A DNA stretch of 64,000 nucleotides from Bacteroides bouchesdurhonensis (lineage in GTDB: Bacteria; Bacteroidota; Bacteroidia; Bacteroidales; Bacteroidaceae), in contig NZ_LT707006.1 in NCBI RefSeq assembly GCF_900155865.1, positions 2,768,577 to 2,832,576 on the forward strand, read 5' to 3'. Below the pieces are notes generated by a model that was not told where the DNA came from, ran no database searches, and saw only the letters and a program-made list of their open reading frames with translations. A program made the position numbers and the translations under genes. Below, piece by piece: positions 28,140 through 39,754 of the stretch; within the stretch, counting starts at the first letter, position 1; the number at the start of each line of letters is the position of its first letter.

Positions 28140-28317
28140 ACTATAATTAACGGATTTATTCGAAGAATTGCTGAACAAATACTCTCTTTAAACTGTTATA
28201 TTTATGTGTTTTTCATAGTATTAGATATAAGATTAATTAAAAAGAGATTGTACGCAACTTGTGAAAGCTTAAGTACGTCAGAAACAGAAGAGTCTGTTTT
28301 TATGATAAATGTGTTAG

Positions 28318-28350
28318 AGCATCGGTTTATATATAGCCGATGCTTTTTTT
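28318..28350 (+). terminator. terminator after pabBC
   Basis: AGCATCGG/CCGATGCT, 8-bp stem with an 11-nt loop, then TTTTTT. It lies 180 bp after the pabC stop; the stretch between has no ORF and could be a long 3' UTR or a small RNA. Confidence 0.8.
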
Positions 28351-28394
28351 ATGTCCTTTTGTAGTGTTTTGTAGTTTATATGAAATAAAATTTG

Positions 28395-35159: not shown

Positions 35160-36725
35160 TTAGAATCCGAAATCGTCTACTTTTACATTTTGTTCTTCTG
35201 TCTCTTTGAAGGGTTTCGCTTCTTTCTGAATGGAATTTCCTTCAATATATACTGCGCGGAATGGGCGGGATGGACATACATATTCACATCCGCCGCAGCC
35301 TACACATATTTCTTTATTAATTTTGGGGAGCGTTAATCCATTTCTGAAAGGTACCATAGAAATAGCCTGTGTAGGGCAGTGTTCGGAGCATGCTCCACAA
35401 CTTGTCCCTTCAGTATAAACAATACAATTCTCCTCAACAAAAACGACATATCCCATTTGATTGAGATGCTTTTGTTCTACAGTTAGCGGACGAATAGCAC
35501 CATTGGGACAAACTTCGCCACAAACCGTACAGTCAAAATTACAAAAGCCTTTATCGAAGCTTACGGTAGGTTGCATCATGCCTGAAAGTCCATATTCGGA
35601 GAAAGATGGTTTCAATACATGAGATGGGCATTTACTCACACAAAGATGACATGATGTACATTTCTGTTGAAATTCTTCTCTGCTAACTGATCCCGGAGGG
35701 GTAATCGGATTTCTCTTTGTGTATGGCTTCTGACCTCCCATAGTAGCAACAGAAGCTTTGGCTTTAGTCAGAATCTTAGGAGTAGTTCCAGCCATTATGC
35801 CTGCTGTCAGGAAACGGCGTTTGGACATATCTACAGCCGATGTTTCCTTTTCTACTGAAGTTTGCTGCTTTTTCTTAGGAGTCTTCTGTTGTTGCTTTAA
35901 ATTTAAAGAAGGGCTATATATTAAAGCTTTCTGTTTACAAGCGTCCAAACAATCGAAACAATCTACGCAACGACTATGGTCGATAAAGTGTTCTTTACTA
36001 TCAATACAAGCTGCTTTACATTTAGTCGCACAAAGTCCGCAACCATTGCATTTGTTGGTATCGATCCGGATTTTAAACAGTGAAAATCGGCTCAAGAATC
36101 CCAACACAGTTCCTACAGGACAAATTGTATTACACCATGTACGTCCATGCTTCCAAGCAAGTACAATGATGATTCCTAATGTAACGATCGCAATGACAAA
36201 AGATGAAAGACTAAGAATAGACGCATCTACCCGATAGAACGTATAATTATCAAACTTAGAGAAGATAGATTCCAGCAGGTTGTTGCCTAATATGTATACA
36301 GGTTTGAATACATTGGTGATAATCCGTCCGAAAGCACTGTATGGATCAAGCAAACCCAGTAATAGAGGGAGTTTGCATAAAAAAGTAATGATAACTACGC
36401 CCAGTATACCCCAGCGTAATATGTTTTTAGCTGCACTGTAACTATATCTTTTTTTCTTTTTTCCGGTTGATTTTGAAATCCTTGCAATAATATCTTGCAA
36501 AATTCCCATCGGACAAATGGTAGAGCAGTAAATACGACCGAATAATAGACTAAGCACTATCAATATGATAAGTATACCTACACTGAGCGAAAGCAGGGCA
36601 GGAACAAATTGTATGTGTGCTAACCTGTGAAAACTATTAGGTAATAGCTCTGCAAAATCGAGAAAATAAAAAGTTATCAGTGCAAATAATATAACTGATA
36701 TTCCTATACGTATCTTTCTTAACAT
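35160..36725 (-). CDS. membrane polyferredoxin, NapH-like plus NapG-like fusion
   Basis: 521 residues. About five membrane helices lie in the first 195 residues, with the NapH-type pairs CSTICPMG (67-74) and CNTICPVG (198-205). Then come two ferredoxin clusters (Cys 226/229/232 and 253/256/259/263), a lysine-rich linker, an internal twin-arginine-like motif SKRRFLTAGIMAG (301-313) and a second iron-sulfur half with about four more clusters (Cys 356/359/362, 395/399/402, 443/446/450, 474/477/480). This looks like fusion of a membrane quinol-dehydrogenase-type ferredoxin with an exported one. Electron carrier at the inner membrane; donor and acceptor unknown. It begins 6 bp after the Tat-DUF362 gene. 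Confidence 0.85.
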   Translation of the reverse strand: MLRKIRIGISVILFALITFYFLDFAELLPNSFHRLAHIQFVPALLSLSVGILIILIVLSLLFGRIYCSTICPMGILQDIIARISKSTGKKKKRYSYSAAKNILRWGILGVVIITFLCKLPLLLGLLDPYSAFGRIITNVFKPVYILGNNLLESIFSKFDNYTFYRVDASILSLSSFVIAIVTLGIIIVLAWKHGRTWCNTICPVGTVLGFLSRFSLFKIRIDTNKCNGCGLCATKCKAACIDSKEHFIDHSRCVDCFDCLDACKQKALIYSPSLNLKQQQKTPKKKQQTSVEKETSAVDMSKRRFLTAGIMAGTTPKILTKAKASVATMGGQKPYTKRNPITPPGSVSREEFQQKCTSCHLCVSKCPSHVLKPSFSEYGLSGMMQPTVSFDKGFCNFDCTVCGEVCPNGAIRPLTVEQKHLNQMGYVVFVEENCIVYTEGTSCGACSEHCPTQAISMVPFRNGLTLPKINKEICVGCGGCEYVCPSRPFRAVYIEGNSIQKEAKPFKETEEQNVKVDDFGF

Positions 36726-36731
36726 TGTGTT

Positions 36732-37667
36732 TTACATCTTAATTCGCTTCACATTCAGTTTGTCGATATCCATTGTTCCTACTTTCAGTGCTTCTCCTTT
36801 AGAGAGATGTCCTACTGTATCCAAAGGCATATCCCGTACTTGATTGAAGAATTTGGCAGCAGCAGTATCTACTGCTACAATATCCGGAGAAATGAACAGC
36901 CCTTTTGCCAACACTACATCTGATTCGGAACGTCCACGTGGACCATTTGTTTTCATGATACGATAGGCATCGACGACATTGAGAACTGCTTTCTTTTCCA
37001 TGGTGCAAATATCTGCAATACATTGTTGCAAATCATGTTGATGGAAGAATCCGCGATCCCATACAATGCCCATATGGTTCTTCATAGAAATCGTCAGATT
37101 AGCTCCTCCATGGTTTTTAAGGATAGGCACATTAATCCATGCATCACAGTTTACGATAGCCTCGTGTACTTTTGCCTTTTTCATATTTACACCGTTCGGC
37201 AAGTCTATCTGTTTATAATAAGATTCCAGATGAGCTGGCATTATTTTTGCACCGGCACTTTTTACTACAGCTTCAATACCACTATTTTTGTAGCATTTCT
37301 GCCAATCGTCACAAGTGTGATCGAATACAGTTACTTCTTTTGCTCCGGCAGCAAAACATTGTTTGATGATTTCAGCCACTAATTTAGGGTTGGTGTTTCC
37401 CGCTAACTCAGGAACTTTATCCCAACCAATATTGGGTTTAACAACTACCTTTTGACCGGGCTTTATGAATTGTTTCATGCCACCTAATTCTTTAATAGCA
37501 CGTCGAAACATTTCTTCCGGTTCTCCACCCATAACAGCTACCAGGTCCGGTTTACCTCCTTTAGGTGCATTGATTGTCTGAGTAAGAACTTCCATTGCCT
37601 CAGACCGTTGTATAGTAAAAGCAGCACCAGTAATTGCTACTGCTTTAAAAAAGTCTCTTCTATCCAT
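36732..37667 (-). CDS. Tat-exported DUF362 protein
   Basis: 311 residues. The N-terminus MDRRDFFKAVAITGAAFTI is a clear twin-arginine signal, so the protein folds with a cofactor inside and is exported. The rest is a DUF362 domain: GQKVVVKPNIGWDKVP, PILKNHGGANLTISMKNHMGIVWDR and DIVAVDTAAAKFF. No ferredoxin cluster is present in this copy. Function of DUF362 is not established. It sits between an ECF-S-like gene (12 bp) and the polyferredoxin (6 bp). Confidence 0.88.
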   Translation of the reverse strand: MDRRDFFKAVAITGAAFTIQRSEAMEVLTQTINAPKGGKPDLVAVMGGEPEEMFRRAIKELGGMKQFIKPGQKVVVKPNIGWDKVPELAGNTNPKLVAEIIKQCFAAGAKEVTVFDHTCDDWQKCYKNSGIEAVVKSAGAKIMPAHLESYYKQIDLPNGVNMKKAKVHEAIVNCDAWINVPILKNHGGANLTISMKNHMGIVWDRGFFHQHDLQQCIADICTMEKKAVLNVVDAYRIMKTNGPRGRSESDVVLAKGLFISPDIVAVDTAAAKFFNQVRDMPLDTVGHLSKGEALKVGTMDIDKLNVKRIKM

Positions 37668-37679
37668 CTTTGTTTAGTT

Positions 37680-38195
37680 TTAAAGTTTAGCTATTGCTTT
37701 CAGCAAGGCATAGCCGCCGAACCATTGAATAAGCATTCCCGGTATACCCATGCGGAAATCCTGTGCTGCTGCATAGAAATCTCTTACAAGTATCCATTCG
37801 AATGCTGTCCCTATGATTTGATAAGAGAGTACAACTCCGAGAATAGCTAACAGGGAGACTGACTTTACAGTTCGTGCAGCAATTGCAGCAGCTCCTGCAA
37901 GTAAAGTTGATTTTATTAATATTGCTGGTAAAACTGCGGCTGCAGGCATTGCAAATAGCAAATGATTGATGACAGGTGAGAGAATAGCCGTTAGCAATCC
38001 TACCCGAAAACCATATTTATACGAAGCAATTAACGTGAAAAAATAGATGGGCAATAAAGTCGGACCACCAAAAGGTACGAGATGACATAATTGTGGTAGA
38101 GCGATGTTACCTGCTACAAATAATAAAACGAACAGGTATGTTTTCACGTTGCTGTAATTCAGCGAATAGAGTTTGGCAGATGTTTCCATTTTCAT
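37680..38195 (-). CDS. ECF transporter S-component-like membrane protein
   Basis: 171 residues with about five to six hydrophobic helices, matching the small substrate-binding S components of ECF transporters (YLFVLLFVAGNIALPQLCHL, YGFRVGLLTAILSPVINHLLF). No EcfA ATPase or EcfT gene is nearby, so it either uses a shared energising module from elsewhere or works alone. The embedding in an iron-sulfur operon is unusual. Substrate unknown; flavin, thiamine and quinone-related compounds are possibilities only. Confidence 0.7.
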   Translation of the reverse strand: MKMETSAKLYSLNYSNVKTYLFVLLFVAGNIALPQLCHLVPFGGPTLLPIYFFTLIASYKYGFRVGLLTAILSPVINHLLFAMPAAAVLPAILIKSTLLAGAAAIAARTVKSVSLLAILGVVLSYQIIGTAFEWILVRDFYAAAQDFRMGIPGMLIQWFGGYALLKAIAKL

Positions 38196-38261
38196 TAATA
38201 ACTTTAATGTTTAGATTATAATATCTTAAGAATTGGACCTTTCTTGATGGAAAAGGTTTAA

Positions 38262-39383
38262 TCAGACTTGTATAATTTCGTAATTCATTGTTCCTAATCC
38301 GATCTTCTCGGCATGTTCCAGTCCGGCAAGCCAATTGGTATTTGGGTGCATCAAATGAAACTTATCGCGTCCACAGAGATCATCATGGTCATGTTTTTCG
38401 GACAATCGGTTGCCACTGTGTAGGATAGGGGCTTTGATTACCATATCGGCACAAGCTTTATCCAATGCTACCGGGTCGAGCGAAGCAAGTATTCCTAAAT
38501 CCGGAATAATAGCTGCATCGTTATGATTCCAACAATCACATTCGGGTGATACGTTCATGATAAAACTGACATGGAAATGAGGTTTGTCTTTAACCACTGC
38601 TAATGAGTATTCTGCGATTTTGTAGTTTAACCGTTCGGAAGTATCTTCATCACCCATAATAGCTCCGTCATACTGGCAAAGTGCTACACATTGACCGCAA
38701 CCGATACATTTGTTGTAGTCAATTTCTGCTTTCCGCTGAGCATTTAAATGTACGGCATCGTGGGCACAATGTTTTACGCAGATGTTGCATCCTTTGCAGC
38801 TTTCCATATCTATTTTAGGTTGAGAGGCACTATGAAGTTCCAACTTACCGGCAACGCTGGCACATCCCATACCTAGATTTTTCAATGCTCCACCAAAACC
38901 TGCCTGCTCGTGCCCTTTGAAATGATTCATACTGATGATAATGTCTGCATCGGCAATGGCAGTTCCTATCTTTGGTGCTTTGCAATATTCACCATCTAAT
39001 GCTATTTCTTTGCAGTCAGTTCCTTTCAGACCATCACCAATAATAACCTGACATTGAGCAGAAATTGGATTGAAACCATTTTCCATTGCGCTTTGCAAAT
39101 GATCTACAGCATTGGCGCGGCGACCGGAATAGAGTGTATTACAATCTGTCAGGAATGGTTTAGCACCAGAGCTTCGAAGTAAATTAGCCATTCTTGCAGC
39201 ATAATTGGGACGGATATATGCTAGGTTTCCTGGTTCTCCAAAGTGTATTTTGATAGCGACAAAACTGTCTTTCAGAGGTAAGGTATTGATACCTGCTTTC
39301 TTTACCAGACGTTCCATTTTATCCAAAAGATTGGACGTAGGAGTAGTTCTAAGATTTGTATAATATACTTTTGACGTTTGCAT
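38262..39383 (-). CDS. DUF362 protein with two [4Fe-4S] clusters
   Basis: 373 residues. A DUF362 domain (SFVAIKIHFGEPGNLAYIRP, ADIIISMNHFKGHEQAGFGGALKNLGMGC) is interrupted by a two-cluster ferredoxin insert, CKGCNICVKHC (about 195-205) and CIGCGQCVALC (about 225-235). No signal peptide, so cytoplasmic, unlike its exported paralogue two genes downstream. First gene of the redox module, with a -7 box 29 bp upstream. Confidence 0.9.
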   Translation of the reverse strand: MQTSKVYYTNLRTTPTSNLLDKMERLVKKAGINTLPLKDSFVAIKIHFGEPGNLAYIRPNYAARMANLLRSSGAKPFLTDCNTLYSGRRANAVDHLQSAMENGFNPISAQCQVIIGDGLKGTDCKEIALDGEYCKAPKIGTAIADADIIISMNHFKGHEQAGFGGALKNLGMGCASVAGKLELHSASQPKIDMESCKGCNICVKHCAHDAVHLNAQRKAEIDYNKCIGCGQCVALCQYDGAIMGDEDTSERLNYKIAEYSLAVVKDKPHFHVSFIMNVSPECDCWNHNDAAIIPDLGILASLDPVALDKACADMVIKAPILHSGNRLSEKHDHDDLCGRDKFHLMHPNTNWLAGLEHAEKIGLGTMNYEIIQV

Positions 39384-39754
39384 AGTTAGTAATTTGTGAG
39401 TTTGTCGTTTACAAAAGTAATGTAATTTTTGAATAGCACATTGTTATTCTGTTGTTTTTTCGCAAAAAAAACTGAAAAAAAGAAGTCGTTATCCAATTAT
39501 TAACGCTTTTAGGTGCTATAAGTTTTCTTGTTTTGTTAAGGCTATTGTGAAAGAAAATCTGATTAGGAAGAGCCCGAATATAATATAAGGTGAAATAGAA
39601 ACTAGGGTAAAGAACCGTAAGAGGTAATCAAACTTTAGTTTTGCTATAGGTCTACACTTAATTTCATAAGGATGAAACTGTTTTTTCTCTTAGATGAAAC
39701 AAAGTTTTGTGACTTATGTATATCGTAACAATAAAAAGAGCTGATACTCAATAG
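39384..39754. other. intergenic region, little recognisable
   Basis: 371 bp between two leftward genes. Only the -7 box at 39412-39419 was noted; no hairpin with U-run and no ORF. Confidence 0.6.
39412..39419 (-). promoter_or_regulatory. -7 box of the redox module
   Basis: Read leftward TACTTTTG, exact TAnnTTTG match, 29 bp before the ferredoxin-DUF362 start. Confidence 0.5.

Follow-up and report, generated by a model that had tools for sequence, protein, structure and literature searches.

The genes analyzed here lie in a 64,000-nucleotide stretch of Bacteroides bouchesdurhonensis DNA (contig NZ_LT707006.1, positions 2,768,577 to 2,832,576; the whole stretch is called the window), in a genome of 5.3 Mb. 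Four consecutive minus-strand open reading frames (ORFs), separated by 66, 12 and 6 bp exactly as an earlier note on this DNA had stated, encode a cytoplasmic DUF362 protein with a ferredoxin insert (Fd362), a membrane protein modeled with the S-component fold of energy-coupling factor (ECF) transporters (S), a second DUF362 protein with a predicted twin-arginine translocation (Tat) signal (Tat362), and a membrane polyferredoxin of NapH–NapG type (NapHG). The unit is Tat362 with NapHG, joined by S in Bacteroidales, with Fd362 as an optional member. At roughly even odds, it is read as a periplasmic redox module built on an old Tat362–NapHG pair and coupled through S to small-molecule uptake; the pair probably carries electrons over the inner membrane to the exported enzyme.

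Gene Linkage in the Genus and the Phylum

Linkage was surveyed in a genus sample of 119 genomes, many of them incomplete, and in a phylum sample of 296 genomes. Genus counts exclude 7 of 116 S rows (broken, fragmentary or weak) and 3 of 41 Tat362 rows (weak). Tat362 was found in 38 of the 119 genus genomes and S in 86, and all 38 Tat362 genomes also have S. In 37 of the 38, Tat362 lies within 4 kb of S, the exception being located at a contig end.

In the phylum sample, Tat362 was present in 30 of 296 genomes, 28 of them outside the genus. NapHG followed Tat362 in 27 of these 28 non-genus loci, directly in 24 and past one called ORF in 3, and none followed it at the remaining locus (L241). S relatives occurred in 5 of the 296 genomes, 3 of them outside the genus (4 in all when a profile was used), and no S match was seen in the 28 non-genus Tat362 stretches. 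The Tat362–NapHG pair thus appears to predate the association with S. An inseparable trio of Tat362, NapHG and S was ruled out by the phylum survey.

Gene runs were compared at named S loci, taken as the best 80 of at least 441 relatives and so biased to close relatives; a callable S ORF was present in 79, and nine partners were tracked. Gene calls at the compared loci are mechanical ORFs, a few of them over-extended or missed (L013, L170). Among the matches listed, the closest named loci, with an S protein 96% identical to that of the window, are those of B. faecalis and B. faecichinchillae. Tat362 stands in the S gene run in 37 of the 79 loci, and NapHG is then in the run in 35 of the 37; at L132 and L146, NapHG follows Tat362 past a longer gap. 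The run at L113, from B. faecis MAJ27, holds S, Tat362 and NapHG and lacks Fd362. The other partners in the S run were a phosphoribosyltransferase (32 loci), Fd362 (30), a TonB receptor (14) and tatA-tatC (5). Of the neighbourhood that the earlier note expected to find conserved, the linkage of Tat362 with NapHG and with S was confirmed, and fixed membership of Fd362 was not.

Features of the four-gene run in the window (positions in the window; all on the minus strand)
Feature	Position	Strand	Basis
Fd362, 373 amino acids, cytoplasmic DUF362 protein with two-[4Fe-4S] ferredoxin insert, optional member	38262..39383	-	Pfam PF04015, 177.1 bits, and Fer4
Possible LarA-type site in Fd362: H158, K168, H184 (LarA H174, K184, H200)	38832..38912	-	Ungapped weak alignment
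S, 171 amino acids, putative solitary membrane protein with ECF S-component fold	37680..38195	-	AlphaFold2 model, fold match
Tat362, 311 amino acids, predicted exported DUF362 protein with modeled LarA fold	36732..37667	-	Pfam, 158.6 bits; fold match
Tat362 N-terminal Tat-type signal, MDRRDFF	37578..37667	-	R3 95/95, R4 93/95, F6 95/95
Tat362 region K184–H209 with K184, H186, K196 and H209	37041..37118	-	K184, H186, K196 95/95; H209 94/95
NapHG, 521 amino acids, NapH–NapG-type membrane polyferredoxin	35160..36725	-	NapH and NapG models below cut-off; conserved Fe-S cysteines
NapHG, two [4Fe-4S] motifs, residues 220–265, probably cytoplasmic side	35931..36068	-	Side inferred from NapH
NapHG internal Tat-type segment, SKRRFLTAG, weakly hydrophobic	35751..35825	-	R303 conservation, hydropathy
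NapHG NapG-like domain, four [4Fe-4S] motifs, residues 350–486, probably exported	35268..35678	-	Cysteine conservation
Possible Bacteroides -7 promoter element, TACTTTTG	39412..39419	-	28 bp ahead of the first gene, read from the sequence

The Polyferredoxin NapHG

Residues 170–277 of NapHG best matched NapH and residues 295–484 best matched NapG among NCBIfam models, in both cases below the cut-offs; scores against the equivalog cut-offs were 76.9/234, 67.6/269, 77/213.05 and 60.7/178.85. Fer4-type domains were detected by Pfam. Cysteine conservation was followed in an alignment of 109 sequences, to which 25 of the 28 non-genus loci contributed (after a length filter), together with 23 sequences from the sister-type locus described below. 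C226, C229, C232, C236, C253, C256, C259 and C263 are identical in 108 of 108 relatives, as are the 16 cysteines from C356 to C484. NapHG additionally holds two CxxxCP motifs, and across the cluster and CxxxCP motifs every cysteine is kept in 108 or 109 of the 109 sequences. The earlier estimate of about six clusters thus agrees with two motifs on the predicted cytoplasmic side and four in the predicted exported part.

Between the NapH-like and NapG-like parts lies the motif KRRFL, whose R303 is invariant (109/109). The fifth hydrophobic segment reaches a maximal 19-residue mean hydropathy of 0.52, against 2.2–3.0 in the other four, values obtained for the window protein alone. Dual Sec-Tat polyferredoxins, fusions of NapH and NapG, are known as a class in the available text of PMC5449189. 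By motif and hydropathy NapHG fits this class, and its translocation by two pathways is predicted; the comparison with NapH and NapG made earlier was therefore well placed. The likeness to the MLMS-1 PFD of that source, as far as described there, extends to the NapH-type part, the internal twin-arginine motif, the weakly hydrophobic fifth segment and the NapG-like four-cluster domain. The difference lies in the partner, which for NapHG is an exported DUF362 protein or, in the sister locus, a Tat-type aldo/keto reductase (AKR), neither of which that text names as a partner. With the NapGH quinol dehydrogenase, NapHG shares domain order and cluster arrangement; it differs in being a single fused chain that does not reach the NapH and NapG cut-offs, and a scan of nine genes, members of the run and neighbours together, turned up no nitrate reductase.

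Tat362 and the Lactate-Racemase Fold

Both DUF362 copies pass the PF04015 cut-off of 24 bits. For Tat362, the earlier reading of a Tat signal stands on the conserved residues of its N-terminus, and the signal profiles remained below cut-off (13.9/22.7 for Pfam TAT_signal, 15.7/16.7 for NCBIfam). TatC is encoded in the same genome according to Pfam, with an adjoining TatA-like gene recognized by eye. With a twin-arginine signal and Tat machinery present, export of Tat362 is predicted. No ferredoxin domain was detected in Tat362 by Pfam. The earlier claim that the protein carries no cluster is not proven, because its cysteines are kept in relatives (C104 and C119 in 95/95, C216 in 93/95, C125 in 88/95).

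The Tat362 model (predicted local distance difference test, pLDDT, 80) superposed on a chain of lactate racemase (LarA) with Z 18.9 and a root-mean-square deviation (rmsd) of 2.5 over 209 residues. It matched 11 racemase or LarA-like entries at Z 16.6–18.9 and the Thermotoga entry 4nar at 16.4, and the next row fell to 6.0. According to the model, Tat362 adopts the LarA fold.

In LarA, H174 and H200 have roles at the nickel-pincer site. K184 is the residue that binds the nickel-pincer nucleotide, and DUF362 and DUF2088 belong to one Pfam clan (both in the available text of PMC11770544). Through the Fd362 alignment, H186 and K196 of Tat362 align at the places of LarA H174 and K184, and H209, whose placement is gapped, is a candidate counterpart of H200; this mapping is a sequence alignment and not a set of structural residue pairs. 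The Lar_N profile gave no match to Tat362. A profile of both DUF362 subfamilies returned weak matches only, LarA not among them.

LarC (PF01969) was not found in the genome (0/1; the control matched 6 of 14 genomes; LarB and LarE were not searched), and for this reason synthesis of the normal nickel-pincer cofactor here is unlikely. Compared with the LarA/DUF2088 racemases, Tat362 appears to share the fold and Fd362, by weak alignment, the His/Lys/His site. The differences are the missing LarC match, the predicted export of Tat362, and in Fd362 the ferredoxin insert and a Lar_N score below cut-off. DUF362 is a family of unknown function, and its exported branch gains here a steady partner, a probable LarA fold and conserved residues.

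The S Protein

The window S protein had no Pfam or NCBIfam match at E ≤ 0.1, PF12822 included; against the PF12822 cut-off of 30.7, a B. fragilis relative (L182) scored 32.0 and the L013 relative 22.7. An AlphaFold2 model built from 51 sequences had a pLDDT of 88 and superposed on TmRibU with Z 15.3 and rmsd 2.9 over 151 residues. Rows 1–19 of the fold search (Z 15.3–10.7) were all ECF-entry chains, among them 4huq, which we take to be an ECF entry, and the next row scored 8.9. The best Foldseek match had E 6.0e-03 and probability 1.00. The six-helix ECF S-component fold is accordingly what the model supports, and the earlier grouping of the membrane protein with ECF S components holds by fold. 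A profile search of S against solved chains gave no sequence match at E ≤ 10.

EcfT (PF02361) was absent from the genome (0/1; the control matched 10 of 14 genomes), and EcfA was not searched. Since the genome has no EcfT match, S is a putative solitary S-fold protein; of the statement that it lacks a motor, the EcfT half is confirmed genome-wide. AxxxA in helix 1 is the docking motif of ECF S components. A28 and A32 of S form such a motif, yet they lie outside the conserved columns of the 51 sequences. Function in the absence of a motor is described for BtuM and for some BioY proteins (PMC11109136 and PMC6072759). To these solitary components S is similar in its modeled fold and in the absence of EcfT from the genome; it differs in having no sequence match to solved chains and in being tied to an electron-transfer pair, a connection that would bear on S-component work without a motor.

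The fold does not assign a ligand, as the top scores are nearly tied across several vitamins (RibU 15.3, PanT 14.3, ThiT 13.6). Assignment from the TonB receptor was likewise given up, its top PDB matches being mixed.

The Cytosolic Relative Fd362

The two-cluster ferredoxin insert attributed to Fd362 was verified by Pfam Fer4 matches. Searched whole against the PDB, Fd362 gave its best matches (the best 60 of 110) all over this insert. A fragment aligned without gaps, at a weak E of 0.62, with LarA of PDB 5huq/6c1w; the Lar_N score was 16.7 bits for the whole protein and 19.5 for the fragment, under a cut-off of 23.3. The pairing with the LarA pocket is suggestive, with the fold match and this weak Lar_N match as its support.

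Orthologues, accepted at 72% identity or more (excluding G330 at 51% and G364 at 48%), were present in 53 of 119 genus genomes. In 40 of the 53 the gene lies within 4 kb of S, and in 13 it is farther away, some of these in fragmented assemblies. Fd362 occurred in 18 of 38 Tat362 genomes and in 35 of 81 without Tat362 (Fisher p = 0.70, in a test that allows neither for relatedness among the genomes nor for the incompleteness of some). Fd362 is loosely attached, and its presence is independent of Tat362; it is an accessory cytosolic relative with no fixed link. A fixed electron path from Fd362 to Tat362 was rejected on the strength of this survey.

Proposed Mechanism

NapGH takes electrons from quinol. 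By analogy, the NapH part of NapHG would be the entry point for electrons at the inner membrane, with menaquinol as the probable donor, and would pass them through two clusters on the cytoplasmic side and then four Tat-exported clusters to Tat362. As an exported protein of presumed LarA fold, Tat362 would spend them on a periplasmic small molecule. S most likely binds this small molecule, its product or a cofactor at the periplasmic face and would import it without an ECF motor, and in some relatives a TonB receptor may bring the small molecule through the outer membrane. The path from NapHG to an exported enzyme is proposed because of what is known of NapGH together with the gene linkage. S is the best candidate for the ligand binder because Tat362 is never without S in the genus sample and an outer-membrane receptor sometimes joins. 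Gene linkage, predicted folds, Tat-type and cluster motifs and the missing EcfT and LarC matches are what was observed; which way the electrons flow, what donates them, the acceptor role of Tat362 and a ligand common to S and Tat362 are inferred.

The earlier suggestion that S handles a small cofactor is plausible, in view of the TonB receptors in the gene run and of the same S family in the sister locus. A start of the electron path at cytosolic Fd362 is not supported, the orthologue being missing from 20 of 38 Tat362 genomes. Overall, the observation behind the earlier note was right and the module is real, and the interpretation given in that note is partly supported. Should the proposed module operate in this way, it would give gut Bacteroides a reductive chemistry in the periplasm linked to the uptake of a scarce small molecule.

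Several results weigh against a Tat362–NapHG redox module coupled to uptake through S. Within the genus, S occurs without Tat362 in 48 of 86 S genomes, and NapHG-type genes, both kinds taken together, are present in 110 of 119 genomes, more than S. Only 2 of the 28 non-genus Tat362 genomes (G093 and G188) have an S relative, which is either separated from Tat362 by some 22 kb or placed on a different contig; as the other 26 have none, the pair can exist without S. Fd362 is the sole tracked partner of S in 16 of the 79 named loci. The internal Tat motif of NapHG reads Lys-Arg or Gln-Arg in 24 of 109 sequences, with the neighbouring Arg-Arg in 85. No riboswitch reached the gathering score in 15 S loci, 14 of them with a TonB receptor, and no substrate or regulator of the module was found. 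The electron donor and acceptor roles are themselves predictions from linkage and analogy.

Alternative Explanations

The four genes might be considered a single machine, in which cytosolic Fd362 feeds the polyferredoxin and, through it, the exported DUF362 protein. The short gaps in the window, the position of Fd362 less than 4 kb from S in 40 of 53 genomes and its place in the S run at 30 of 79 named loci would suit such a path; the 20 Tat362 genomes without an orthologue, the absence of association (p = 0.70), the 35 genomes with Fd362 and no Tat362, and a single Fd362-like match in 28 non-genus loci (L226, 31%) make it very unlikely. A somewhat better, still improbable, case can be made for S importing a thiamin-related compound, with Fd362 serving that pathway and the redox pair as a separate neighbour. 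Of 7 loci picked for having thi genes upstream, 6 have a thiamin pyrophosphate (TPP) riboswitch ahead of those genes. In L124, L131, L133, L149, L155 and L156, a ThiD-like gene (named by eye) ends between -1 and 70 bp before Fd362, and in several such loci Fd362 overlaps or nearly meets S. Most named loci, however, have no upstream thi-type gene in view, a gene on the opposite strand directly precedes Fd362 in L114 and L116, no riboswitch was found in 15 other loci or in the window region, and the fold score of ThiT (13.6) is not favoured over RibU (15.3) and PanT (14.3).

S may instead be a solitary corrinoid transporter of BtuM type, in which case the redox proteins would serve to reduce the corrinoid. 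In the available text of PMC6072759, BtuM is an S-fold transporter from an organism without an ECF module, it modifies its substrate, and its genes co-localise with BtuB. Consistent with this, a type B TonB receptor aligned with BtuB near full length (E 1.4e-12), and all 51 aligned S sequences keep H38. The same receptor search, however, ranked the colicin I receptor (2e-15) above BtuB and ferric enterobactin receptors (1.3e-11) nearly equal to it, over the plug region; C37 of S is not invariant, and no cobalamin riboswitch was found in 15 loci, so that the probability given to a corrinoid role is low. Less improbable than any of these, if unlikely, is S as a sensor or scaffold in a membrane complex with no transport function: S-component folds are common to transporters and receptors, as far as stated in PMC11109136, and at L072, L077 and L078 the S locus has a LytS-like kinase and a LytTR-like regulator (both named by eye) as neighbours. 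TonB receptors adjoining S point instead to uptake, and the nearby kinases are separate proteins which, judged by eye, have membrane segments of their own.

In LarA, a nickel-carrying pyridinium mononucleotide is tethered in the His/Lys/His pocket. An extension of the redox module, regarded as a long shot, would make the DUF362 proteins holders of an undescribed LarA-like cofactor: S would salvage the base from which a phosphoribosyltransferase would form the mononucleotide, and the charged enzyme, exported by Tat and supplied with electrons by NapHG, would act as a periplasmic reductase. It draws on the apparently kept His/Lys/His pocket, the missing LarC match and the phosphoribosyltransferase adjoining in many relatives.

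Neighbouring Genes and the Sister Locus

The phosphoribosyltransferase was not found in the genome carrying the window, in a search without a positive control. It adjoins distant S proteins in G091 and G188 as well, and weak matches, one each, were obtained at the non-genus loci L228, L229 and L245 (31–38%).

A sister locus lies about 140 kb away in the same genome and holds a flavodoxin-like gene, a NapHG paralogue, a two-cluster Tat-type AKR, DUF1893, a TonB receptor and a broken second S copy. This copy is split into two reading frames (L011:10694-11200; G000:C1:2948699-2949206) and is unbroken in relatives. Other Bacteroides have sister-type loci in which S is unbroken, and of the 121 rows in the S tree 23 bear this label. 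Locus labels are strongly clustered on this tree, and neither the Tat362 type (8 changes) nor the AKR type (6 changes) forms a single clade. S is thus found together with electron wires of the NapHG type and with one or the other Tat-type redox protein. The kinase–regulator pairs of L072, L077 and L078 stand beside loci of the Tat362 type and of the AKR type.

The genes tatA and tatC directly follow S in L150, L152, L165 and L168 and follow NapHG in L167, where the run order is S, transferase, Tat362, NapHG, TatA, TatC. In these five loci the module looks as though it carried a translocase of its own.

In the six loci with the ThiD-like gene, Fd362 and S come after a thiamin biosynthesis operon at short distances. 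Four of them were scanned; L124, L149 and L156 have an upstream TPP riboswitch, and none was found in the shorter stretch of L131. In L095, S adjoins a lipoprotein-type DUF362 protein, a predicted permease, a carboxymuconolactone decarboxylase–cupin protein and a Tat-type flavodoxin, most of these named by eye. At L164:8873-9448, S and a TonB receptor are followed by a protein resembling FmdE, as judged by eye. In L174, L175, L177–L180, L184 and L185, which are Bacteroidales metagenome-assembled genomes, several from ruminants, S lies between a protein of 400–424 amino acids and DUF1893, in a run without NapHG or Tat362.

A literature search by title and abstract opening, with most subscription journals and preprints outside its coverage, returned no paper on the module. 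No riboswitch was found in the window region. The element TACTTTTG ahead of Fd362 was named a possible promoter element on the basis of TAnnTTTG, which we take to be the Bacteroides -7 consensus. Elsewhere in the window, the small RNA GibS (Rfam RF04182) was detected at 28206–28352 on the plus strand with 131 bits.

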